Shown here piece by piece: positions 10,008-21,611 of a stretch of 64,000 nt of DNA (positions are counted from its first letter, which is position 1; each line of letters opens with the position of its first letter). The position numbers and the translations under genes were made by a program. Under the pieces are notes generated by a model. It made no database searches. It was not told where the DNA came from and saw only the letters and a list, made by a program, of their open reading frames with translations. The DNA lies in contig CP037918.1 in NCBI GenBank assembly GCA_019356535.1, positions 1,054,001 through 1,118,000 on the forward strand, given 5' to 3'. This DNA is from Chromatiaceae bacterium (GTDB taxonomy: Bacteria > Pseudomonadota > Gammaproteobacteria > Chromatiales > Chromatiaceae).

Positions 10008-10991
10008 CTACTGGGTGAAAGTGTAGGGCAGATCGAGGAAGGTCAGTTGCGGGCCGTCTACGGTGCCCAGGTGTATGTCGCCGGCCTCGGCGGCGGCGAT
10101 CTCGATCACCGCCAGGGCCTCGTAGCCGCCGTCCGGCGAGGGGGCGGACGAGACGATGCGTCCGGTGCCTTGGCCCGAGGCGCTGTGCGGCGAGTAAAGG
10201 GTCTCGCCGGGCGCGGGCTGATCGCTGCTGTCGATGCGCACCCGGTACATGCGGCGCTTGAGTTTACCCAGGTAGTGCATGCGCGCAACGATCTCCTGGC
10301 CGGTATAGCAGCCCTTGGTGAAACTCACGCCGTCGATGATATGGAGGTTGGTCATCTGCGGGACGAAGGCTTCGACCGTGGCCTCGTATACCGTGGGGAT
10401 GCCGGCTCGGATGTCGAGCAATGCCCAGGCGACCGCCGAGGTGGGCCGGGCTGTGCCAGCAGCCTTTTCCCACAGGACCTGCATGGCCTCTGGCTCGCCC
10501 AGCACCTGGAAGCGTGGGCGGTCACCGGGGATGCGGATCACGGTGTAGCCGTCGAGACTGTGCACGCCGTTGTCTTCACTCGGCGGATCGATGGGCAGTA
10601 GGCCGGGGGCGCAGTCGCCAGACAGTTCGATGCGCACCAGCCTGTCGCTGACATCCTCGATCTGCACCTTCGAGCGCAACACGAACATGCGCAGCCGCTG
10701 CAGGGTGGCAGCCAGACGCTCAGCGGGGAGCATCAACAGCAGCGCGTCGTCGCGTTCGAGGATACGGAAGCTCGCCAGCATGCGCCCCTTGGGGCTGCAA
10801 TAGGCGCTGAGCTGGCTGTGGGTGGCGTCGACCTTGTTGATGTCGTTGGTGAGCTGACCCTGCAGGAAGTTGCGTGCGTCTTCTCCGCTCACCTGGAGCA
10901 GGCCGATGTGCGAGAGATCGGTCAGGGCACAGTCGGGGAGGGGGCCGTCGTCGAGCCGTTGTTGGTTCAGGAATTCCTGCCAGTCCAGCAT
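10008..10991 (-). CDS. ygfZ: Folate-binding protein YgfZ
   Basis: A GcvT-like folate-dependent protein that helps assemble or repair iron-sulfur clusters. The diagnostic KGCYTGQEIVARMHYLGK motif with its conserved cysteine is present near residue 225, preceded by LLQVSGEDARNFLQGQLTND and YCSPKGRMLASFRI. The ATG at 10991 is chosen (327 aa) because a GGAGAAC ribosome site lies just upstream and the protein starts MLDWQEFLNQQ; the longer upstream reading frame has no support. Divergent from RNase II, with an 86-bp shared promoter gap. Confidence 0.95.
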   Translation of the reverse strand: MLDWQEFLNQQRLDDGPLPDCALTDLSHIGLLQVSGEDARNFLQGQLTNDINKVDATHSQLSAYCSPKGRMLASFRILERDDALLLMLPAERLAATLQRLRMFVLRSKVQIEDVSDRLVRIELSGDCAPGLLPIDPPSEDNGVHSLDGYTVIRIPGDRPRFQVLGEPEAMQVLWEKAAGTARPTSAVAWALLDIRAGIPTVYEATVEAFVPQMTNLHIIDGVSFTKGCYTGQEIVARMHYLGKLKRRMYRVRIDSSDQPAPGETLYSPHSASGQGTGRIVSSAPSPDGGYEALAVIEIAAAEAGDIHLGTVDGPQLTFLDLPYTFTQ

Positions 10992-11077
10992 GGATGTTCT
11001 CCGCAAATCCTCGGGGTGGGCAGGTATCATAGCCAACTTCCGAGTCGATTTTTCGCAGTCTCCCGAGGGAATTCCAC

Positions 11078-12889
11078 GTGTCCGCATCCATCCGCGCCGG
11101 CAGTCTGGTGCTCTACAAGATCCACCCGGCCCGGGTCAGCGCGGTGGGCGAGAAGATCGAGATCGAACTGGCCGGCGGTAAGTCGCGCAAGGTGCGTCCC
11201 AAGGACGTCAGCTTGTTGCACCCGGGGCCGCTGAATTCGCTCGCTGCCCTGGAAGCCCCGGAAGCCAATGTCGAGGAGGCCTGGGAGCTGTTGCAGGGCG
11301 AGCAGCCGACCTTCGAGGAGCTGGCTGAGCTGGTGTTTGGCGAGTTCACCCCGGCCAGCGCCTGGGCCACCTGGGAACTGTTGCAGAATGGTCTGTATTT
11401 CGCCGGTGACCCTGCAGCCGTGAAGGTCAATGCCCCCGAGGTGGTCGCCGCGCTACGCGCCGAACGCGAACGCAAGCAGCGCGAGGCCGAGGAATGGGAG
11501 GGCTTTCTCGTCCGCGTGGAGCAGGCGGCGCTCGAGGAGGAGGACCGCAAGCGCCTGGCCGAGGTGGAACGTGTTGCCCTGGGGGATGCCACGAGGAGCC
11601 GCATCCTGAGCCACTTCAAGGTGGACGCCACGCCGGAGGCGGCACACCGTTTCCTGTTGCGCTGCGGCTACTGGCCGGCCGAGTACAACCCCTGGCCGCA
11701 GCGCGCCGGCGTGGTGCTCGAATCGCCGGAGATCGGTGTGCCGGCCCTGCCCGAGGAAGACCGGCTCGACCTGACCCACCTCGAGGCCTGGGCGATCGAC
11801 GATGTCGGCAACCAGGACCCGGACGATGCCATCAGCCTGGACGGCGACTACCTGTGGGTGCACGTGGCCGATGTGGCTGCCCTGGTGCGCCCCGATGGGC
11901 ATCTCGACCAGGCGGCGCGCGAGCGCGCGAGCAATCTCTACCTGCCCGAGCGTACCGTCACCATGTTGCCGCCGGCGCTCACCGAGCAGCTGGGCCTGGG
12001 CCTGCAACCGGTCTCCCCGGCGCTGTCGATCGGCCTGCGCCTGGTCGACGGCGAGCCGCGTGACATCCGTATCGAGCGCACCTGGGTGAAAGTCTCGCGC
12101 ACCAGCTACGAGGCGGCCAACGAGCGCCTGCACGAGCCGCTGTTCGCGCGCCTGGCAGAACTCACCACCGTCTATCGCGCGCGACGGCTGGCGCGCAATG
12201 CGGCGCGCATCGACCTGCCCGAGGCCGCGGTCCGCGTGATCGACGACGAAGTGGTGATCCGCCCGCTGCCCAAGATGCCGGCGCGCGACCTGGTGACCGA
12301 CGCCATGTTGATGGCCGGCGAGGCGGTGGCCCGCTTCGCCGAGGCCAATGAGTTGCCTATCCCCTATGCCATGCAGCCCGAGCCTGAGGAGATCCGCCAG
12401 CCACAGACCCTGGCCGAGATGTATGCCTACCGGCGGCTGTTCAAGCCGAGCAATACGGTGCTGCACCCCGAGCCGCACTTCGGCCTGGGGCTGGAACGTT
12501 ATGCCCGCGCCACCAGCCCGCTGCGCCGCTATGCCGACCTGCTGGTGCACCAGCAGTTGCGTGCCTTCGTCGCCGGGATGGAGCCCATGTCACGCGAGAC
12601 CCTGGCCGAGCGCATCGCCGGTATCGACGTGGCGGGCGGGCGCATCCGCCGCGCCGAGCGCCAATCCAACCTGCACTGGAAGCTGATCTACCTGCAGCGT
12701 CACCCCGGATGGGAGGGTGAGGCGGTGGTCGCCGCACTCGAGGAGCGCAAGGTTGTACTCATCATCCCCGAGCTGGCGATGGAGATCCGCATGCGCCCGC
12801 ACGATCGTTTCGCGCCCGATCAGACGGTGCGCCTGCGCCTGCGCGACCTCGATCTCACCACCCAGGACGTCTGGTTCCAGGTGGTCTGA
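11078..12889 (+). CDS. rnb: RNase II family exoribonuclease
   Basis: A 603-aa 3'-to-5' exoribonuclease with an RNB catalytic domain. The active-site string AIDDVGNQDPDDAISLDGDY holds the four metal-binding Asp residues, and RYARATSPLRRYADLLVHQQ holds the catalytic Arg. The N-terminus VLYKIHPARVSAVGEKIEI looks like an OB/SH3-type RNA-binding fold; a short S1-like end (MRPHDRFAPDQTVRLRL) follows. GTG start with GAGGGAA seven bases upstream. It is shorter than E. coli RNase II (644 aa) and may belong to the RNB variant class common in this group rather than being a strict rnb orthologue. Confidence 0.9.
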   Translation: MSASIRAGSLVLYKIHPARVSAVGEKIEIELAGGKSRKVRPKDVSLLHPGPLNSLAALEAPEANVEEAWELLQGEQPTFEELAELVFGEFTPASAWATWELLQNGLYFAGDPAAVKVNAPEVVAALRAERERKQREAEEWEGFLVRVEQAALEEEDRKRLAEVERVALGDATRSRILSHFKVDATPEAAHRFLLRCGYWPAEYNPWPQRAGVVLESPEIGVPALPEEDRLDLTHLEAWAIDDVGNQDPDDAISLDGDYLWVHVADVAALVRPDGHLDQAARERASNLYLPERTVTMLPPALTEQLGLGLQPVSPALSIGLRLVDGEPRDIRIERTWVKVSRTSYEAANERLHEPLFARLAELTTVYRARRLARNAARIDLPEAAVRVIDDEVVIRPLPKMPARDLVTDAMLMAGEAVARFAEANELPIPYAMQPEPEEIRQPQTLAEMYAYRRLFKPSNTVLHPEPHFGLGLERYARATSPLRRYADLLVHQQLRAFVAGMEPMSRETLAERIAGIDVAGGRIRRAERQSNLHWKLIYLQRHPGWEGEAVVAALEERKVVLIIPELAMEIRMRPHDRFAPDQTVRLRLRDLDLTTQDVWFQVV

Positions 12890-12953
12890 CCGGCCTTGAC
12901 CGCCGGGGGCGAAAGCTGGCCTACTCGGGTTCCGGTAACTGAGGGTGCTGGAC

Positions 12954-13529
12954 ATGCTCGATAAGTTCTGTCGCTGGCTGGCCATTTGTTCAATGATGCC
13001 TCCGCTGGCATTTGCCGAGGTGCAGACCGGCAGCGACCCGGAGACCGGCCTGCGCTTCTGGCAGTGGTCGGAGGATGGAGTCTCTGTGCGGCTGGTGCAG
13101 CGTCTACCCGACCAGACCCGGGGCTTTTTCCTGGCGCGCGGCTTCCGTGCTGCCGAGGCTGATCGCATCGCCCGGGCCTGCGTGTTCCAGACAATCTTCC
13201 GTAACGACGGTGCCCGCCCGGTGGATTTCGATCTGCGTGACTGGCGGGTGCTGCACCAGGGTCAGTCCTCGCGGCTGCGCGTGCGCGAGGACTGGGACGC
13301 GCTCTGGCCGGAGGATGCGGTGTCCAAGGCGGCACGCATTGCCCTGCGCTGGTCGCTGCTGCCGACCCGCCAGCACTTCGAGCCCGGCGACTACAACTGG
13401 GGCATGAGCGCTTACGGGTTGGCGCCGGGCAGCCGTTTCGACCTCCGCCTGGTACTGCACATCGGCGGGCAGCCGGTGGAGGCGTTGTTGCCCGGTATCG
13501 AATGCCCCCGTGACGGAGACAAACCATGA
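12954..13529 (+). CDS. Exported protein of unknown function
   Basis: 191 aa with a probable signal peptide (MLDKFCRWLAICSMMPPLAFA). The mature part is rich in Arg, Trp and beta-prone stretches (RLVQRLPDQTRGFFLARGF; DFDLRDWRVLHQG; YNWGMSAYGLAPGSRFDLRL). Two cysteines (ARACVFQ and GIECPRD) could pair. ATG 12954 is eight bases after GAGGG; the GTG nine bases upstream is inside the ribosome site. Its stop overlaps the start of the TlpA-like thioredoxin, so that enzyme may act on it. I do not recognise a family. Confidence 0.75.
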   Translation: MLDKFCRWLAICSMMPPLAFAEVQTGSDPETGLRFWQWSEDGVSVRLVQRLPDQTRGFFLARGFRAAEADRIARACVFQTIFRNDGARPVDFDLRDWRVLHQGQSSRLRVREDWDALWPEDAVSKAARIALRWSLLPTRQHFEPGDYNWGMSAYGLAPGSRFDLRLVLHIGGQPVEALLPGIECPRDGDKP

Positions 13530-14035
13530 AAACGATTTTCCGCTTGTTCGGGTTGCTGTTGCTGACCGGGCTCGTGCTGGCGCAGCAGCCCGGACGCGGC
13601 CTGACCCCGGTGGAGGGGCGGCCCGAGGCCCCGGATTTCACCTTGCTGGATCTGGATGGCGAGACTCACCGCCTGGCCGACTATCGTGGCAAGGTCGTCA
13701 TCGTCAACTTCTGGGCCACCTGGTGCCCACCCTGCCGTGCCGAGATGCCGTCCATGCAGCGTGCCTGGGAAAAACTCCGGGAACAGGGCGTGGTGATGCT
13801 GGGTGTCGATGTGGGCGAAGACGAGGAGACGGTGTTCCAGTTCCTGGCCGATTACCCGGTGGAGTTTCCCCTGCTGCTGGACCAGGACTCCCGGGTGATC
13901 GAGCGCTGGGGTGTGCGTGGCCTGCCCACCACCTTCGTGGTCGATCCTGAGGGGCGGCTGGCCTATCGTGCCGTGGGCGGGCGCAAATGGGACAGTCCCC
14001 GGTTGCTGGAAGCAGTGCTCGCTCTACGCCATTGA
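13526..14035 (+). CDS. TlpA/ResA-like periplasmic thioredoxin
   Basis: A 169-aa exported thiol-disulfide oxidoreductase. A signal peptide (about residues 1-20, ending LVLAQQ) precedes a thioredoxin fold: APDFTLLDLDGETHRLADYR, VNFWATWCPPCRAEMPSMQ with the CPPC active site, and GLPTTFVVDPEGRLAYRAVG with the cis-Pro. It probably reduces or shuffles disulfides in envelope proteins, as in cytochrome c maturation. Its start overlaps the preceding unknown exported gene by four bases, and moaA follows about 100 bp later. Confidence 0.92.
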   Translation: MKTIFRLFGLLLLTGLVLAQQPGRGLTPVEGRPEAPDFTLLDLDGETHRLADYRGKVVIVNFWATWCPPCRAEMPSMQRAWEKLREQGVVMLGVDVGEDEETVFQFLADYPVEFPLLLDQDSRVIERWGVRGLPTTFVVDPEGRLAYRAVGGRKWDSPRLLEAVLALRH

Positions 14036-14091
14036 TGACGTCGATGGCGATATTCGGCACAACATCGGGCGGGAAGTGCTATCTTGTGCAT

Positions 14092-14111
14092 CAGTGTATC
14101 GCCATATACTG
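14092..14111. promoter_or_regulatory. Imperfect inverted repeat and TATACT box before moaA
   Basis: CAGTGTAT-CGCC-ATATACTG has 8-bp arms with one mismatch. TATACT at 14105-14110 may serve as the -10 box, with TTGTGC at 14084-14089 as a -35 at a short 15-bp spacing. An overlapping repressor site is possible; evidence is weak. Confidence 0.3.
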
Positions 14112-14131
14112 ATTCGCCGTCGGGGGGCCAC

Positions 14132-15118
14132 ATGAAACCGCCATTGCGCGACAACTTCGGCCGGACCATCGACTACCTGCGCCTGTCGGTCACCGACCGT
14201 TGTGACCTGCGCTGCCAGTACTGCATGCCCAAGGGGTTCAAGAATTTCGCCGAACCCGGTAGCTGGTTGAGCTTCGAAGAACTGGCGCGCCTGATGGCGG
14301 TGTTCGCCCGTCTGGGCCTGCGTCATCTGCGGCTGACCGGCGGTGAGCCGCTGGTACGCCGTGACCTCCCAGTGCTGGTGCGCATGCTCGCCGAGATCCC
14401 CGGCCTGCAGGATATCTCGCTCTCCAGCAACTGCATGCGCATGGAGAAGCTGGCCGGTCCGCTGGTCGAGGCCGGGGTGAAGCGGCTGAACGTGAGTCTG
14501 GACTCGCTGCGCCCGGAGCGTTTCCGCGAGATCACCGGCGGGGGACGGCTGGACAAGGTGTTGCGCGGTATCGAGGCGGCGCGCGAGGCCGGCATGTGGC
14601 CGATCAAGATCAACACTGTGGCCATGAAGGGCTTCAACGACGACGAGTTCGACGACCTGATCGCCTATTGCGTCGAGCATGGCTACGCCCTGCGCTTCAT
14701 CGAGACCATGCCGGTGGGCGACACCGGGCGCCGGGCCCTGGGCAGTTACCTTAACCTGCAGCAGGTGCGCCAGGAGCTGGTCGAGCGGCACGGCCTGGTG
14801 CCGGCTTCAATGGTCGGTGCCGGACCTGCCCGCTATTACCGGGTGCCCGGCAGCGAGACGCGCATTGGCTTTATCACCCCCATCTCCCAGCACTTCTGCG
14901 CTACCTGCAACCGGGTGCGCTTGTCCTGTGAGGGTGATCTGTTCGCCTGTCTGGGTGACGAGCACCGTTATGGCCTGCGCGAGCCTCTGCGCGCCGGGTG
15001 CAGCGATGAGGAACTGGCCGAGCACGTGCTTGCCGCGATCAACCTCAAACCCGAGCGCCACGAGTTCAACGAGCGCCAGGAGAAGGTGGTGCGCTTCATG
15101 TCCATGACGGGCGGTTGA
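14132..15118 (+). CDS. moaA: GTP 3',8-cyclase (molybdenum cofactor synthesis)
   Basis: Radical-SAM enzyme that starts Moco synthesis from GTP. The N-terminal cluster ligands are CDLRCQYC within LRLSVTDRCDLRCQYCMPKG; the second 4Fe-4S site is CATCNRVRLSCEGDLFACLG (C-x2-C-x13-C). The protein ends in the Gly-Gly tail (SMTGG) needed for GTP binding or activity. The ATG at 14132 gives 328 aa with a GGGGGG ribosome site; the upstream in-frame ATG would add a non-conserved leader. It implies molybdoenzymes elsewhere in the genome. Confidence 0.96.
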   Translation: MKPPLRDNFGRTIDYLRLSVTDRCDLRCQYCMPKGFKNFAEPGSWLSFEELARLMAVFARLGLRHLRLTGGEPLVRRDLPVLVRMLAEIPGLQDISLSSNCMRMEKLAGPLVEAGVKRLNVSLDSLRPERFREITGGGRLDKVLRGIEAAREAGMWPIKINTVAMKGFNDDEFDDLIAYCVEHGYALRFIETMPVGDTGRRALGSYLNLQQVRQELVERHGLVPASMVGAGPARYYRVPGSETRIGFITPISQHFCATCNRVRLSCEGDLFACLGDEHRYGLREPLRAGCSDEELAEHVLAAINLKPERHEFNERQEKVVRFMSMTGG

Positions 15119-15273
15119 GTCGTTCTTGATCCGGCGCATTATTCTGTAGGAGCAAACCCGATATACTCCGCGCCTGGAAGGAACCTCTGATCAAGCTCTT
15201 GGCCACGCGTGGGGGAGGGGAATGCAGCACTTGATTCAGAGCTCCCCTGAACGTCCGCCTGCAGGAGAACGGC

Positions 15274-15468
15274 ATGTCCGACAGCGAGACCCCGAATACC
15301 GGCGACATTTCCCCCAACACCCCGGCGGCCGAGTTCGCCGCCTGGTGTGAGGCCGAGTTCGAGCGCCGTCGCAACTCGGGTGACGACTTCGATGAGGGGC
15401 ATTATCGCAAGGCCATGCAGTTGGTCATCGAGCGCCTGCAACGATTGGAAGACGAGGGCCGGGCATGA
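15274..15468 (+). CDS. Small acidic protein encoded before the membrane SMC-like ATPase
   Basis: A 64-aa acidic, soluble protein with a Pro/Thr-rich, probably disordered first 20 residues and a helical remainder (AEFAAWCEAEFERRRNSGDD, YRKAMQLVIERLQRLEDEG). An AGGAG ribosome site precedes the ATG. Its stop overlaps the ATG of the ATPase (ATGA), so the two are made together; it is probably an accessory or regulatory subunit. No family is recognised. Confidence 0.75.
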   Translation: MSDSETPNTGDISPNTPAAEFAAWCEAEFERRRNSGDDFDEGHYRKAMQLVIERLQRLEDEGRA

Positions 15469-17381
15469 TCATCACGCGCATCAAGGGCTGCAACATCCTC
15501 AAGTACCGCCGCCTCGAGCTGGCCTTGCCGGAGAGCGGCCTGATCGCCATCAGCGGGCAGAACGAGTCGGGCAAGAGTAGTATCGGTGAGGCGGTCTGCT
15601 TCGCCCTGTTCGGGCGAACCTTTTCCATCGGTCCCGATGAGCTGGACAAGGTGGTGCGCTGGGGCGAGAACCACTGCACGGTCACCCTCGACTTCACCGT
15701 CGACGGGGTGGCCTGGGAACTCTCGCGCATGCTCGATCGTGATGGCAACCACGGCGCCAGCCTGACGAGGGCGGGGGACGAGGAGCCGGTTGCGCGGGGC
15801 GTGAAGGTGGTCAACGAGCGGCTGGTGGAGCTGGTCGGCTTCGAGTACGAGCAGTTCGTCGAGTCCTTTTACCTGGCGCAGCGCGAGATCACCACCCCGC
15901 ATCCGCACAGCCAGGCGGTCAAGATCATGGCTGGCATCGCCCCGCTGGAGCGGGTGCGCGAGGAAATCGCGGGCGAGATCCGTGAGCGCCACGAGCTGCT
16001 CGGCGAGGTGCAGGCCGAGATCGACACGGTACGCAGCGACCTGGACGCGCTGGATGTCGAGCCGGGGCGGCTGGAACGACTCGAGCGCGAGCGTGCCACC
16101 CTGCGCGACCAGGCCGACCAGGTCGGTGGCCTGGGAGAGGAGATCGCGCAGCGCGTGGATACCTATGCAGAACACATGCGCGCCATCTACCAGGCGCAGT
16201 CGGCACGCTCGCGCGCGGCCTTCCTGCGTTTTGTCTTCTTCCTGCTGGCGCTGGCCGCCCTGGCCCTGTGGTGGCTGCTGGGCGAGGGCGCGGAGATGCC
16301 GCTGGCCGGACAGGTGCGTGGTCTGCTCGACCAGTATGCGCCGCAATATGTCCAGGTGCCGCTGCAGTGGTGGCTGTGGGGCGCCGCGGGGCTGGGCGGC
16401 TTGTTCCTGTTGAGCTGGCTGCGTGTTGCCGCCAAGGGGGGGCGGGTGCGCCGCTTGCGCGCCGAGGCCGGACAATTGGCCGAGAGTCTGCAACGCGCGC
16501 GCGACCTGGAGATCGAGATCGAGCAGCCGTTGCCCGAGGCGCTGGAGGAGACACCGGCGGCGCCTGCCGGGGAGAGCGCCGAGGAGGCGTTGGACGACGA
16601 GGCCGGGGAGGAGGCGTCGGTCGAAGTGGTACCCGAGCGGCCCGATGCCATGGCCTTCGAGTCGCTGGTCGAACGCATTGCCAGCGGCGAGGCTGCGGTG
16701 CGCCAGGTGCGCGCTTATGTCGAGCCCGAACTGGTCTGGCTGGACTGGGTGCGCGAGCAGCTGGGGGCGGAGGTCGCGACGCTCGATGCGGCTATCGAGG
16801 AGGAGCAGGCACGCCTGCGTGAGGCAACCAACCTGGGACAGGTGCTAGAGGGGCTGCGCGAGCAACGCGAGGAGGTCGAGGCGCGCATCCGCCTGCGCGA
16901 GACCGCGATCGAGCTGCTGGAAGGCGCGGTCGGTGCCCTGTCCAACCAGTTCAACCGCGACATCAAGGAGCTGGTGGCACGACTGCTGCCGCGTTTCACC
17001 GACGGGCGCTACGAGCACCTGCAGATCGACCGGGATCTCAGCGTGCGGGTCTTCTCCGCCGAGAAGCGCGATTTCATGGACCTCGAGGAAGTCTCCAGCG
17101 GCACCCAGCGCCAGATCATGCTGGCGCTGCGCCTGGCCTTGTCGCAGAAGCTGCTGGCGCGCAAGGTGCGCGGTCGCCAGTTCGCCTTCCTCGACGAGCC
17201 CTTCGCCTTCTTCGACGAGGAACGCACCCGCCGCGCATTGGCGGCCCTGGCCGAGCTGGGCGAGGACATCAGCCAGGTGTGGATCGTGGCGCAGAGCTTC
17301 CCCGAGGATGCCGGGGTGGGCTTTGATGTGCACATCGAATGCCGTCGTGAACAGGACGAGCTGGTGCGGGGTATCGAATAG
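15465..17381 (+). CDS. SMC/Rad50-like ATPase with two internal membrane segments
   Basis: A 638-aa ABC-type ATPase of the RecF/Rad50/SMC class. Walker A is SGQNESGKSS at residues 30-39. The C-terminus has the signature EEVSSGTQRQIMLALRLALS and Walker B with D-loop QFAFLDEPFAFFDEERTRRA. Coiled coils run at about 155-245 and 415-500. Between them lie two hydrophobic helices, about 251-273 (FLRFVFFLLALAALALWWLL) and 302-324, separated by a short loop, then a Glu/Ala-rich linker near 350-380. It should sit on the inner membrane with both ATPase halves in the cytoplasm. There is no SbcD-type nuclease nearby. It recalls Bacillus YhaN, but orthology is unproven. Confidence 0.85.
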   Translation: MIITRIKGCNILKYRRLELALPESGLIAISGQNESGKSSIGEAVCFALFGRTFSIGPDELDKVVRWGENHCTVTLDFTVDGVAWELSRMLDRDGNHGASLTRAGDEEPVARGVKVVNERLVELVGFEYEQFVESFYLAQREITTPHPHSQAVKIMAGIAPLERVREEIAGEIRERHELLGEVQAEIDTVRSDLDALDVEPGRLERLERERATLRDQADQVGGLGEEIAQRVDTYAEHMRAIYQAQSARSRAAFLRFVFFLLALAALALWWLLGEGAEMPLAGQVRGLLDQYAPQYVQVPLQWWLWGAAGLGGLFLLSWLRVAAKGGRVRRLRAEAGQLAESLQRARDLEIEIEQPLPEALEETPAAPAGESAEEALDDEAGEEASVEVVPERPDAMAFESLVERIASGEAAVRQVRAYVEPELVWLDWVREQLGAEVATLDAAIEEEQARLREATNLGQVLEGLREQREEVEARIRLRETAIELLEGAVGALSNQFNRDIKELVARLLPRFTDGRYEHLQIDRDLSVRVFSAEKRDFMDLEEVSSGTQRQIMLALRLALSQKLLARKVRGRQFAFLDEPFAFFDEERTRRALAALAELGEDISQVWIVAQSFPEDAGVGFDVHIECRREQDELVRGIE

Positions 17382-17412
17382 CCTGGTCCAGTTGGAGATG
17401 TGTCTGTTGCGA

Positions 17413-17446
17413 CTCTCCCTCCCGCCCCCCGTGATTGGGGGAAGGG
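17413..17446. repeat. Family-A palindrome between the ATPase and alaS
   Basis: CTCTCCCTCCCGCCCCCC, a GTGATT loop and GGGGGAAGGG form a strong hairpin about 30 bp after the ATPase stop. A T-rich stretch follows only later, so terminator function is uncertain. Confidence 0.5.
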
Positions 17447-17581
17447 TTAAAACACTTTGTCCATGAGATTTCTTTGCGAGGGCGGGGGCACGGAGATAGC
17501 CGCCGCCATGCTTCTCCAGGTGACATTCCCAGCGAAGCTGCATACCATTCGCTGTCTGTCGTAACCACTGCTCCAGCCTGT

Positions 17582-20206
17582 ATGAAGACCAGCGCCGAAA
17601 TCCGTTCTGCCTTTCTTGACTACTTCGCGGAGAAGGGCCACCAGATCGTCGACTCCAGTCCCCTGGTGCCGGCCAACGATCCGACCCTGTTGTTCACCAA
17701 CGCCGGCATGGTGCAGTTCAAGGACGTGTTCCTGGGTAAGGACAAGCGTTCCTACACGCGTGCGGCCAGCGCCCAGCGCTGCGTGCGTGCCGGCGGCAAG
17801 CACAACGACCTCGAGAATGTCGGCTACACCGCGCGGCATCACACCTTCTTCGAGATGCTGGGCAACTTCAGCTTCGGCGACTACTTCAAGCGCGAGGCCA
17901 TCGGTTTTGCCTGGGAATTCCTGACCGAACGCCTGGGTCTGCCGCCCGAGCGGCTGTGGGTGACCGTCTACGAGGAGGACGACGAGGCGGCCGAGATCTG
18001 GCTGAACGAGATCGGTGTCGATCCGGCGCGTTTTACCCGCATCGGCGACAAACCGGGCGGCAAGCGCTTCGAGAGCGACAATTTCTGGAGCATGGGGGAC
18101 ACCGGTCCCTGCGGTCCCTGTTCGGAAATCTTCTACGACCATGGCCCCGAGGTCTGGGGTGGCCCTCCTGGATCGCCCGAGGAGGACGGGGACCGTTACA
18201 TCGAGATCTGGAATCTGGTGTTCATGCAGTACAACCGTGACGCCGAGGGCAACATGACGCCGTTGCCCAAGCCCTCGGTGGACACCGGTATGGGGCTGGA
18301 GCGGCTGGCCGCGGTGTTGCAGGGGGTGCATTCGAACTACGAGATCGACCTGTTCCAGGGGCTGATCCGCGCCGCCGCCCGGGCCACCGGTACCGACGAC
18401 CTGGAATCCAAGTCGCTGCGCGTGCTTGCCGATCACATCCGCTCCTGCGCCTTCCTGGTGGTCGATGGTGTGCTGCCGGGCAACGAGGGCCGGGGCTATG
18501 TGCTGCGCCGCATCATCCGTCGTGCCATCCGTCACGGCTACCAGCTCGGCCAGCATGAGCCCTTCTTCCACACCCTGGTCGATGCCCTGGACGAGCAGAT
18601 GGGCGACGCCTATCCCGAGCTGCGGCGTTCGAAGGAACACGTCAAGCGGGTGTTGAAGGTTGAGGAAGAACGTTTCGCCGAGACCATCGAACACGGCATG
18701 CGTATCCTCGATGAGGCCATCGAGGGCCTGGACGGCAAGGTGATCCCCGGCGAACTGCTGTTCAAACTGTACGATACCTACGGTTTCCCGCTGGATCTGA
18801 CCGCGGACATTGCACGCGAGCGCGGGCTGGAAGTGGACGAGGCCGGCTTCGAGCGCGAGATGGCCGCGCAGCGGGAGCGGGCGCGCGCCGCTAGCCAGTT
18901 CAGCACCGAGCAGCAGGCCACGGTCGCGCTGGAGGGGGTGACCGACTTTACCGGCTACGAGCGTCTGGAGGACCAGTCCACCGTGGTGGCCCTGTTCCAC
19001 GACGGCGAGGCGGTGGACCGCCTCGGCCCGGGTGAGCAGGGCATGGTGGTGCTTGATCGCACCCCCTTCTATGCGGAGTCGGGCGGCCAGGTAGGCGATG
19101 CCGGCGAGCTGGTCGCCAACGGTGTGCGTTTCGAAGTCGAGGACACGCGCAAGCAGGGTGGGGCGGTGTTCGGGCACCTGGGTCGCATGGCCGAGGGCGA
19201 ACTGAACATCGGTGATCGCGTGAGTGCGCAGGTGGACGAGGCGCGCCGCCACGCCATCGCGCTCAACCATTCCGCCACCCACCTGTTGCACGCGGCGCTG
19301 CGCCAGATCCTCGGCGAGCACGTGCAGCAGAAGGGCTCGCTGGTCGAGGCCGCACGCCTGCGTTTCGACTTCTCGCACTTCGAGCCGGTCTCGCGCGAGC
19401 AGCTGCAGGCCATCGAGCGCCTGGTCAACGAACAGGTCCGCGCCAATCATCTGGTAGAGACGCGCATCATGTCGCTGGATGATGCCAAGGCCGTTGGCGC
19501 CATGGCCCTGTTCGGCGAGAAATACGACGAGCAGGTGCGGGTGTTGCGCATGGGCGATTTCTCCATCGAGCTGTGCGGCGGCACCCATGTCAAGGCCACC
19601 GGCGATATCGGCTTGTTCCGCATCGTTGCCGAGTCGGGCATTGCCTCGGGAGTGCGACGTATCGAGGCAGTCACTGGTGCCGCGGCCATCGAGGCCATGC
19701 AGCGTGACGACGACCGCCTGTTCGAGATCGTCGGCCTGCTCAACGCCGGGCGTGACGACGTGGTGGACAAGGCCGCGCGCTTGGTCGAGCAGGAACGCCG
19801 GCTGGAGAAGGAGCTGGCGCAGCTGAAGTCGAAGCTGGCCGCCGCGGCGGGTGCCGATCTGGCCGGCCAGGCCGAAGAGATCGCCGGCATCAAGGTACTG
19901 GCCGCCAAGGTGGAAGGCGTGGAACCGAAGGCGCTGCGTGACCTGCTCGACCAGCTCAAGCAGAAGCTGGGCAGCGGGGTAATCCTGCTGGCGGTGGAGA
20001 ACGGCGGCAAGGTCAACCTCATTGCCGGGGTCACCAAGGATCTGACCGACCGCTTCAAGGCCGGTGACCTGGTGCGCGAGGCTGCGGCCAAGGTCGGCGG
20101 CAAGGGTGGTGGGCGGCCTGACATGGCGCAGGCCGGCGGCAGTGATCCGGCCGGCATCCCCCAGGCCCTGGCACTGGTCGCCGAGTGGGTGCGCGAGCGC
20201 GCCTGA
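17582..20206 (+). CDS. alaS: Alanyl-tRNA synthetase
   Basis: Charges tRNA-Ala; 874 aa, the usual length. The catalytic domain begins [20 protein letters not shown] with motif [20 protein letters not shown] and [20 protein letters not shown]. The editing domain has [13 protein letters not shown] and [15 protein letters not shown], the zinc/editing ligands. The C-terminal oligomerisation (C-Ala) domain ends with [17 protein letters not shown]. The ATG at 17582 is chosen by homology; the frame stays open about 150 bp upstream but that part is the repeat region. Confidence 0.98.
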
Positions 20207-20260
20207 AACCCCTTCGCGGCGGGGACGCCACAACGACAGGACCAAAAAGGTCACCTGTAG

Positions 20261-20300
20261 GTCGGCCTTCAGGCCGACATGTCGGGCTCAAGTCCGATCC
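20261..20300. repeat. Family-B repeat, two units, upstream of lysC
   Basis: GTCGGCCTTCAGGCCGAC is a perfect 18-bp palindrome (20261-20278), followed after 2 bp by a second, degraded unit GTCGGGCTCAAGTCCGAT. It is preceded by TGTAG. This is the clearest family member and lies in the alaS-lysC gap. Confidence 0.75.
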
Positions 20301-20384
20301 ACGTCGGAACCAGAACAGGCTCTTTATCGTGACGGGGGAATGCGGTCTAATACCGCGCTTTCCAGTAATCGGCAGTAAAGCAAG

Positions 20385-21611
20385 ATGGCACTGATCGTCC
20401 AGAAGTATGGCGGCACCTCGGTCGGCACGGTGGAACGCATTCAGAACGTCGCTCGCCGGGTGAAGAAGCGCCGTGACGCCGGTGACGACGTGGTGGTGGT
20501 GGTCTCGGCCATGTCCGGCGAGACCAATCGCTTGATCGCGCTCGCCGGCGAGATCACCGATAACCCCGACCCGCGCGAACTCGACGTGCTGGTGACCACC
20601 GGCGAGCAGGTGACCATCGCCCTGCTGTCGATGGCCCTGCAGGCGATTGGTTGTGATGCTCGCTCCTACACCGGCGCTCAGGTGCGCATCCTCACTGACA
20701 GCGCGCACGGCAAGGCGCGCATCAGCGACATCGATGATGTGCGCGTGCATGCCGACCTCAAGGCCGGCCGCGTAGTGGTGGTGGCCGGTTTCCAGGGCGT
20801 GGACGAGCACGGCAACATCACCACCCTGGGACGCGGCGGCTCGGATACCACTGCGGTGGCCATGGCGGCGGCGCTGAAGGCTGACGAGTGCCAGATCTTC
20901 ACCGATGTCGATGGGGTGTACACCACCGACCCGCGCGTGGAGCCGCGTGCGCGCAAGCTCGACCGCATCACCTTCGAGGAGATGCTGGAGATGGCCAGTC
21001 TTGGCTCCAAGGTGTTGCAGATCCGCTCGGTGGAGTTCGCCGGCAAGTACAACGTGCCCCTGCGCGTCCTCTCCAGTTTCGAGGAGGAGGGCGAGGGCAC
21101 CCTGATCACATTCGAGGAGGAAGGCGTGGAAGCGGCAAAGATCTCGGGCATCGCATTCAACCGTGACGAGGCCAAGCTGACCATCCGGGGCGTACCCGAT
21201 CAGCCAGGCGTAGCGTACGAGATCCTCGGCCCGATAGGTGACGCCAACATCGAAGTCGACATGATCGTGCAGAACATCGCCAACGATGGCACCACCGACT
21301 TCACCTTCACCGTCAACCGTGGCGAGTTCGCCAAGGCCAAGGCCATCCTCGAAAAGACCGCCAGCGAGCTGGGCGCGCGTGAGGTCATCGGCGACGACAA
21401 GATCGTCAAGATCTCGCTGGTCGGCGTCGGTATGCGCTCGCATGCCGGCATCGCCAGCAAGATGTTCGAAACCCTGTCGAAGGAAGGCATCAATATCCAG
21501 ATGATCTCCACCTCCGAGATCAAGATCTCGGTCGTGGTGGATGAAAAGTACCTGGAGCTCGGTGTGCGCGCCCTGCACGAGGCCTTCGGACTCGACCAGG
21601 AAGGGGAATAA
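20385..21611 (+). CDS. lysC: Aspartate kinase
   Basis: Phosphorylates aspartate for lysine, threonine and methionine synthesis. 408 aa, monofunctional type. Motifs: VQKYGGTSVGTVERI, VVSAMSGETNRLI, TTGEQVTIALLSMAL, GRGGSDTTAVAMAAALKADE, and FTDVDGVYTTDPR. Two ACT domains follow from about residue 265 (LTIRGVPDQPGVAYEILGPI and ISLVGVGMRSHAGIASKMFE), the site of feedback control by lysine and/or threonine. Lies between alaS and csrA, a known order in non-enteric Gammaproteobacteria. The ribosome site is weak (GTAAAGCAAG). Confidence 0.97.
   Translation: MALIVQKYGGTSVGTVERIQNVARRVKKRRDAGDDVVVVVSAMSGETNRLIALAGEITDNPDPRELDVLVTTGEQVTIALLSMALQAIGCDARSYTGAQVRILTDSAHGKARISDIDDVRVHADLKAGRVVVVAGFQGVDEHGNITTLGRGGSDTTAVAMAAALKADECQIFTDVDGVYTTDPRVEPRARKLDRITFEEMLEMASLGSKVLQIRSVEFAGKYNVPLRVLSSFEEEGEGTLITFEEEGVEAAKISGIAFNRDEAKLTIRGVPDQPGVAYEILGPIGDANIEVDMIVQNIANDGTTDFTFTVNRGEFAKAKAILEKTASELGAREVIGDDKIVKISLVGVGMRSHAGIASKMFETLSKEGINIQMISTSEIKISVVVDEKYLELGVRALHEAFGLDQEGE

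Follow-up and report, generated by a model that had tools for sequence, protein, structure and literature searches.

At one locus of a Chromatiaceae genome a Rad50-like ATPase is encoded directly behind a 64-aa protein. An earlier reading of the letters alone (further referred to as the sequence-only reading) had suggested that two hydrophobic helices interrupt the coiled coil of this ATPase and anchor it in the membrane, and that the pair could form an undescribed system. The window, i.e. the whole stretch of DNA analysed, is 64,000 nucleotides long.

The gene pair and its conservation

The two-gene arrangement with an ATGA overlap was confirmed with exact coordinates. The features of the pair are as follows.

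15263–15267, + strand: AGGAG, read directly, a putative Shine-Dalgarno-like element 5' of the small gene
15274–15468, + strand: ORF of the small partner, 64 aa, predicted helix-loop-helix
15465–15468, + strand: ATGA start/stop overlap of both genes, read from the sequence
15465–17381, + strand: ORF of the ATPase, 638 aa, Rad50-type with transmembrane hairpin according to family, structure and alignment matches

The small protein is acidic, as had been claimed (15 D/E vs 8 K/R). Nothing from a scan for promoters and terminators enters the argument.

The pairing proved to be conserved across genomes. In the order, the ATPase is present in 79 of 147 genomes, and a profile search found the small protein in the same 79, with one match each (the genome lists were compared by eye); the places compared adjoin the ATPase. 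Members of this order contributed to the profile, but this does not account for the zero hits in the 68 ATPase-negative genomes. In total 85 loci were gathered, including four duplicates, that is, 81 distinct ones. The small gene is recognisable upstream of the ATPase, on the same strand and within 400 nt, in 76 of the 81 distinct loci, and the overlap is exactly 4 nt in 66. Among the exceptions, one locus (L109) begins at a contig end, and another (L116) has a diverged 64-aa ORF at −4. In L185 (7027–10336; genome G684, same genus) the small gene is intact, while the ATPase gene is split by an insertion whose frames look IS3-like by eye and has a further break downstream. At −4 in L063 and L064 there are short ORFs, neither recognisably similar to the small protein. 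The small protein is a dedicated, obligate co-encoded partner of the ATPase.

The diverged loci L063 and L064 adjoin an S4-domain gene (Hsp15-like, by eye).

The ATPase head

The catalytic motifs named in the sequence-only reading are all present in the 638-aa protein:

15555–15578, + strand: Walker A GQNESGKS, residues 31–38
17094–17114, + strand: ABC signature SSGTQRQ, residues 544–550
17181–17225, + strand: Walker B and D-loop FAFLDEPFAFFDEER, residues 573–587
17292–17294, + strand: Q610 at the switch (H-loop) position, where the aligned Rad50 has His

Residues 573–586, covering the Walker B and D-loop, read FAFLDEPFAFFDEE, and the Q-loop residue is Q139. Conservation was assessed in 82 aligned homologue rows, which include four duplicate genomes; L185, L038 and L116 were removed beforehand. 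N33, E34 and K37 of the Walker A are invariant (82/82), and D577 and E578 are each found in 79 rows, the remaining three being gaps. Since D577 and E578 are kept, hydrolysis is plausible, and judging from its motifs the ATPase looks competent for it, with one unusual switch residue: position 610 is Gln in 79 rows, Pro in two and a gap in one.

Two relatives, L033 and L185, lack the short Walker B stretch holding the catalytic Asp-Glu (its equivalent in the window is at about 17181–17225). In the window this stretch is flanked by the two copies of a 9-base direct repeat, so its loss may reflect slippage; an assembly error is also possible.

By sequence and predicted fold the head is Rad50-like. 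Pfam AAA_23 matches the ATPase above the cut-off (44.6 vs 27 bits), the SMC_N match is barely over it (40.1 vs 40), and no NCBIfam model reaches its cut-off. Among solved structures, the sequence searches matched Rad50 exclusively (13 distinct sequences). The AF2 model, built from eight sequences (pLDDT 77.6, pTM 0.47), is closest to Rad50 3auy_A (Z 27.1, rmsd 4.3, 347 aligned residues); a second Rad50 is tied with it (Z within 1), and further Rad50 and SMC heads are close.

The arm and the transmembrane hairpin

The two hydrophobic helices had been placed at about residues 251–273 and 302–324; the measured peaks fall at residues 254–272 and 304–322. The arm includes the following features.

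16224–16280, + strand: transmembrane helix 1, residues 254–272, KD19 2.31
16281–16373, + strand: short inter-helix loop, residues 273–303, predicted to be periplasmic by the positive-inside rule
16374–16430, + strand: transmembrane helix 2, residues 304–322, KD19 1.39 in this protein
16506–16646, + strand: acidic, variable, mostly disordered linker, residues 348–394

KD19 is at least 1.3 for both segments in 80 of the 82 homologue rows and at least 1.5 in 73; the median for helix 2 over these rows is 2.09. The control set contained 34 ATPase reads that were retrieved with AAA_23 or SbcC models or adjoined such reads, several of them partial genes, with classes (SMC, RecN, RecF, SbcC, YhaN-like and others) assigned by eye. 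The four reads in it that belong to the protein family of the window ATPase have the hairpin pair, whereas none of the 30 other ABC/SMC-type reads has paired segments beyond residue 150; a single segment of at least 1.3 occurs in 11 of these 30. Over 81 rows the density of K/R rises from 0.049 in the loop to 0.120 in the arms and 0.280 in the flanks, and in 80 of the 81 rows the loop is below the flanks.

In the AF2 model the helices of the N-terminal side span residues 158–196 and 202–272, and those of the C-terminal side, 300–335, 337–347 and 412–511. The membrane segments are predicted to be the ends of the arm helices 202–272 and 300–335. The possibility that they are buried core helices, raised in the sequence-only reading against its own proposal, is not borne out, given that they continue the arm helices in the model and that the hairpin is conserved, obeys the positive-inside rule and is absent from the controls. 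In the linker, pLDDT falls under 50 at residues 353–386, and conservation there is the lowest of the whole ATPase. The homologues form two size classes, with 53 short and 29 long rows; the long forms exceed the short ones by about 109 residues, placed behind residue 241 and immediately ahead of the first membrane helix. One genome (G345) has two long-form copies (L108 and L109) on different contigs. The data support a Rad50/SMC-type ATPase with a conserved transmembrane hairpin, which takes the site of the Rad50 zinc hook or the SMC hinge.

Neighbouring genes

The seven neighbours of the pair in the window (10008–21611) are a GCV_T gene, an RNase II gene, a gene without family, a thioredoxin-type gene, a molybdenum-cofactor radical SAM gene, an alanyl-tRNA synthetase and an aspartokinase-type gene. 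No phosphoesterase family occurs among them, and in the 85 loci phmmer found no relative of the genome's own SbcD/YhaO-like protein, a search that very distant forms would escape. The claim that no SbcD/Mre11-type nuclease gene is nearby agrees with both results. The only partner found beside the ATPase is the 64-aa protein.

The RNase II-family gene (11078–12889) lies 2.4 kb upstream of the pair, with three genes between. Over the loci gathered, RNase II is upstream in 22 rows (two duplicates), always on the same strand, and within 200 nt in 15 distinct loci, 14 of which come from the 37 distinct own-family loci. A second class of bacteria carrying the pair (L100–L118), probably Magnetococcia, has other neighbours. 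In 12 of its 19 loci the gene behind the ATPase belongs to one cluster, and 10 of these 12 genes overlap the ATPase or lie within 15 nt of it (start calls are rough); the single member of the cluster that was scanned is a PstS-like binding protein. Upstream of the pair, this class often has an MFS-type transporter and a gene family that matches nothing in Pfam. As neighbours differ between lineages, the constant core is the pair alone. RNase II and the PstS-like gene were considered as constant components and rejected, both being lineage-specific.

The PstS-like gene that often continues the second-class operons points to the envelope rather than DNA, and it favours the main rival of the DNA-based mechanism proposed below. 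ABC systems of the FtsEX and MacB type couple an ATPase to transmembrane helices and pass an ATP-driven signal or force to the periplasmic side. Similarly, closing of the heads could move the arm and the hairpin and transmit a signal or force to a periplasmic partner, DNA not being the substrate. The presence of the hairpin in nearly all homologues and the loop length, with a median of 29 residues in both size classes (ranges 12–37 and 6–52), speak for such coupling, as does the second-class downstream gene. On the other hand, the loop has few residues and low conservation (block mean about 0.29), the loci of Gammaproteobacteria show no recurrent periplasmic partner, RNase II being commoner there, and the head resembles Rad50 by sequence and fold. 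The window ATPase shares with FtsEX and MacB, in their familiar features, the coupling to transmembrane helices and differs in being one polypeptide with a Rad50-type head and arm and only about 29 residues outside. We regard trans-envelope coupling as unlikely, though it ranks as the main rival.

Distribution and inheritance

A search of the class (E ≤ 1e-10) gave ATPase matches in 28 of 274 genomes; one of them (G249) is an SbcC of 1172 aa, which leaves 27 carriers. The phylum sample contains 34 positive genomes out of 398, namely the own genome and 33 of the second class, in which 33 of 48 genomes are positive. Occurrence in Gammaproteobacteria is scattered. The relatives that bear a name in GTDB contigs are metagenome assemblies of Gammaproteobacteria and Chromatiales, Sedimenticola included.

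At E ≤ 1e-10, 50,697 phage records and 72,556 plasmids contained no ATPase homologue, and of 122 pattern hits in viral contigs not one was confirmed. Among the genomes listed for the order (79 positives and 20 of the 68 negatives) carriers and non-carriers occur together in a single genus (g426), as they do in genus g328 of the second class; the order of the neighbours is partly preserved within lineages. Because confirmed phage, plasmid or viral homologues are lacking, mixed genera are few and neighbour order is partly kept within lineages, chromosomal inheritance with loss of the unit fits better than mobile spread. In the tree of the heads, rows group together by lineage group, yet the own family needs eight label changes and does not form a single clade. 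YhaN sits among second-class sequences on a very long branch (length 10), and the outgroup is split; for these reasons no rooting or descent is drawn from it.

These data also bear on the idea that the pair is a relative of Lamassu (LmuB) or MADS and serves in defence against phages or plasmids. PADLOC profiles mad3 (3.3e-20) and LmuB (3.2e-14) do match the ATPase, and SMC-like ATPases are known in defence according to PMC10586767. LmuB is similar in length (~600–650 aa), in being Rad50-like with short arms and in having a small companion gene. PMC10586767 also describes LmuB as generally carrying an E-to-Q change in Walker B, whereas the window ATPase keeps the catalytic E578 and has a membrane hairpin. 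Further, the pair was not found on the mobile elements searched, and the seven window neighbours match no PADLOC defence profile save radical-SAM cross-hits of the molybdenum-cofactor gene, with no Lamassu profile, hence no LmuA effector, among them. Recurrent neighbours elsewhere include RNase II, a GCV_T gene and HrpB. The defence reading was rejected for want of a homologue on the mobile elements searched and of any defence profile beyond these cross-hits among the seven window neighbours, and we consider it very improbable.

Comparison with Rad50, SbcC, SMC and YhaN

With Rad50 and SbcC the window protein shares the ABC head fold and its motifs (Q-loop, signature, Walker B and D-loop), the head-proximal arm helices and, possibly, a helix-loop-helix at the neck. 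It differs from them in having no CxxC zinc hook (the only cysteines are at positions 9, 45, 71 and 626), in an arm that turns in a membrane hairpin, in the absence of an adjacent Mre11/SbcD-like gene, in the Gln at the switch and in the separate 64-aa partner. The family cut-offs are missed by far: the score is 56.8 vs 478.5 for sbcc and 61.9–81.8 vs 700–1087 for the Rad50 models. From SMC it differs in that no hinge family appears among the Pfam matches (E ≤ 1), the turn being the hairpin.

YhaN had been named as a protein of broadly similar plan. The two have in common the N-E-x-G-K-[ST] style of Walker A, the G-T style of signature and the lack of a CxxC hook, but the resemblance is not close. 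The genome encodes a separate YhaN-like ATPase (882 aa; the label is our own, from motif style, an AAA_27 hit and the adjoining phosphoesterase), which has no hairpin. Next to it lies a 375-aa phosphoesterase that we read as SbcD/YhaO-like and that does not reach the SbcD cut-off (55.4 vs 77.65); the two genes together span L099:2161–5933 (about 1624660–1628432 of the genome). The window pair has no such neighbour. The window protein is under the AAA_27 cut-off (18.5 vs 22 bits). Membership in YhaN was rejected on the AAA_27 score and the separate YhaN-like pair.

A related possibility is that the ATPase is a divergent SbcC or YhaN whose nuclease is encoded elsewhere in the genome, the hairpin being an elaboration. 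It agrees with the BLASTP match to the YhaN-like protein (35% over 118 head residues, E 3e-9) and with the existence of the SbcD/YhaO-like phosphoesterase. That phosphoesterase, however, already has an ATPase next door, the zinc hook is lacking, and YhaN is placed unreliably in the tree. In the class, 10 of the 27 genomes with the ATPase and 27 of the 247 without it gave an SbcC match (sets compared by eye, uncorrected for relatedness, few candidates scored per genome), which is the opposite of replacement; substitution for SbcC is thus unsupported. In the own genome no SbcC match was seen at E ≤ 1e-30 among two of 30 candidates scored. We find such a divergent SbcC or YhaN hard to credit.

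Since the head is Rad50/SMC-like while hook, hinge and nuclease neighbour are lacking, we set the pair apart and file it as a variant of the superfamily distinct from Rad50, SbcC, YhaN and LmuB. Among the models examined no Pfam or NCBIfam family covers the pair, and in the openly licensed (CC) literature searched no paper appears to describe it, in keeping with the earlier suggestion of an undescribed system; the role in DNA or envelope stress that was suggested with it is a conjecture.

The small partner and a proposed mechanism

The small protein is predicted to fold as a helix-loop-helix (helices 17–34 and 41–60; pLDDT 81.3). Its prevailing residues are F21, E28, R31, F39-D40, Y/F44, A47 and L55 (80 rows, including four duplicates). 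It has no Pfam or NCBIfam family, 28 diverse members giving single weak hits only. Foldseek found no significant relative (best E 3.3), and its profile gave only weak matches to solved structures (SOX-17, 0.019; cullin-3). Mre11 is absent from both the fold and the profile matches, two helices offering little to compare.

PMC7260605 describes the Rad50-binding domain (RBD) of Mre11 as a helix-loop-helix in contact with the base of the Rad50 coiled coil. As the fold and profile searches lacked significant relatives, the likeness of the small protein to this domain is one of secondary structure alone; its position at the neck is a hypothesis by analogy. Covariation between the two proteins was computed after removal of four duplicate and three near-identical rows (72 pairs, effective 68). 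Neck columns account for 13 of the top 60 pairs vs 10.4 expected; restricted to the helix-loop-helix columns, the count is 10 vs 10.4, near chance.

We tentatively propose, at somewhat less than an even chance, that the pair is a two-subunit, membrane-tethered Rad50-type machine acting as an ATP-gated clamp that keeps DNA at the membrane without cutting it. Two ATPase heads would point into the cytoplasm, their arms being rooted in the inner membrane, and ATP binding would close them around DNA or a DNA-protein target. The small protein would sit at the arm base, like the Mre11 domain, gating the ATPase and contributing no nuclease. DNA as the substrate is inferred from the Rad50 family, and the PstS-like gene after the second-class operons argues against the clamp.

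A broader formulation, which we also hold at somewhat less than an even chance, is a new class of SMC/Rad50-superfamily complex with a dedicated 64-aa neck subunit, whose dimerising hinge or hook has been replaced by the membrane hairpin. Such a machine would anchor or move chromosomal DNA at the inner membrane, or transmit head closure across it.

Work on Rad50 and SMC ATPases treats them as soluble machines with a hook or a hinge at the end of the arms. With two genes, a short loop and no nuclease, the pair would be a simple system for the action of such an ATPase with one end fixed, and a candidate for a bacterial connection between DNA and envelope.
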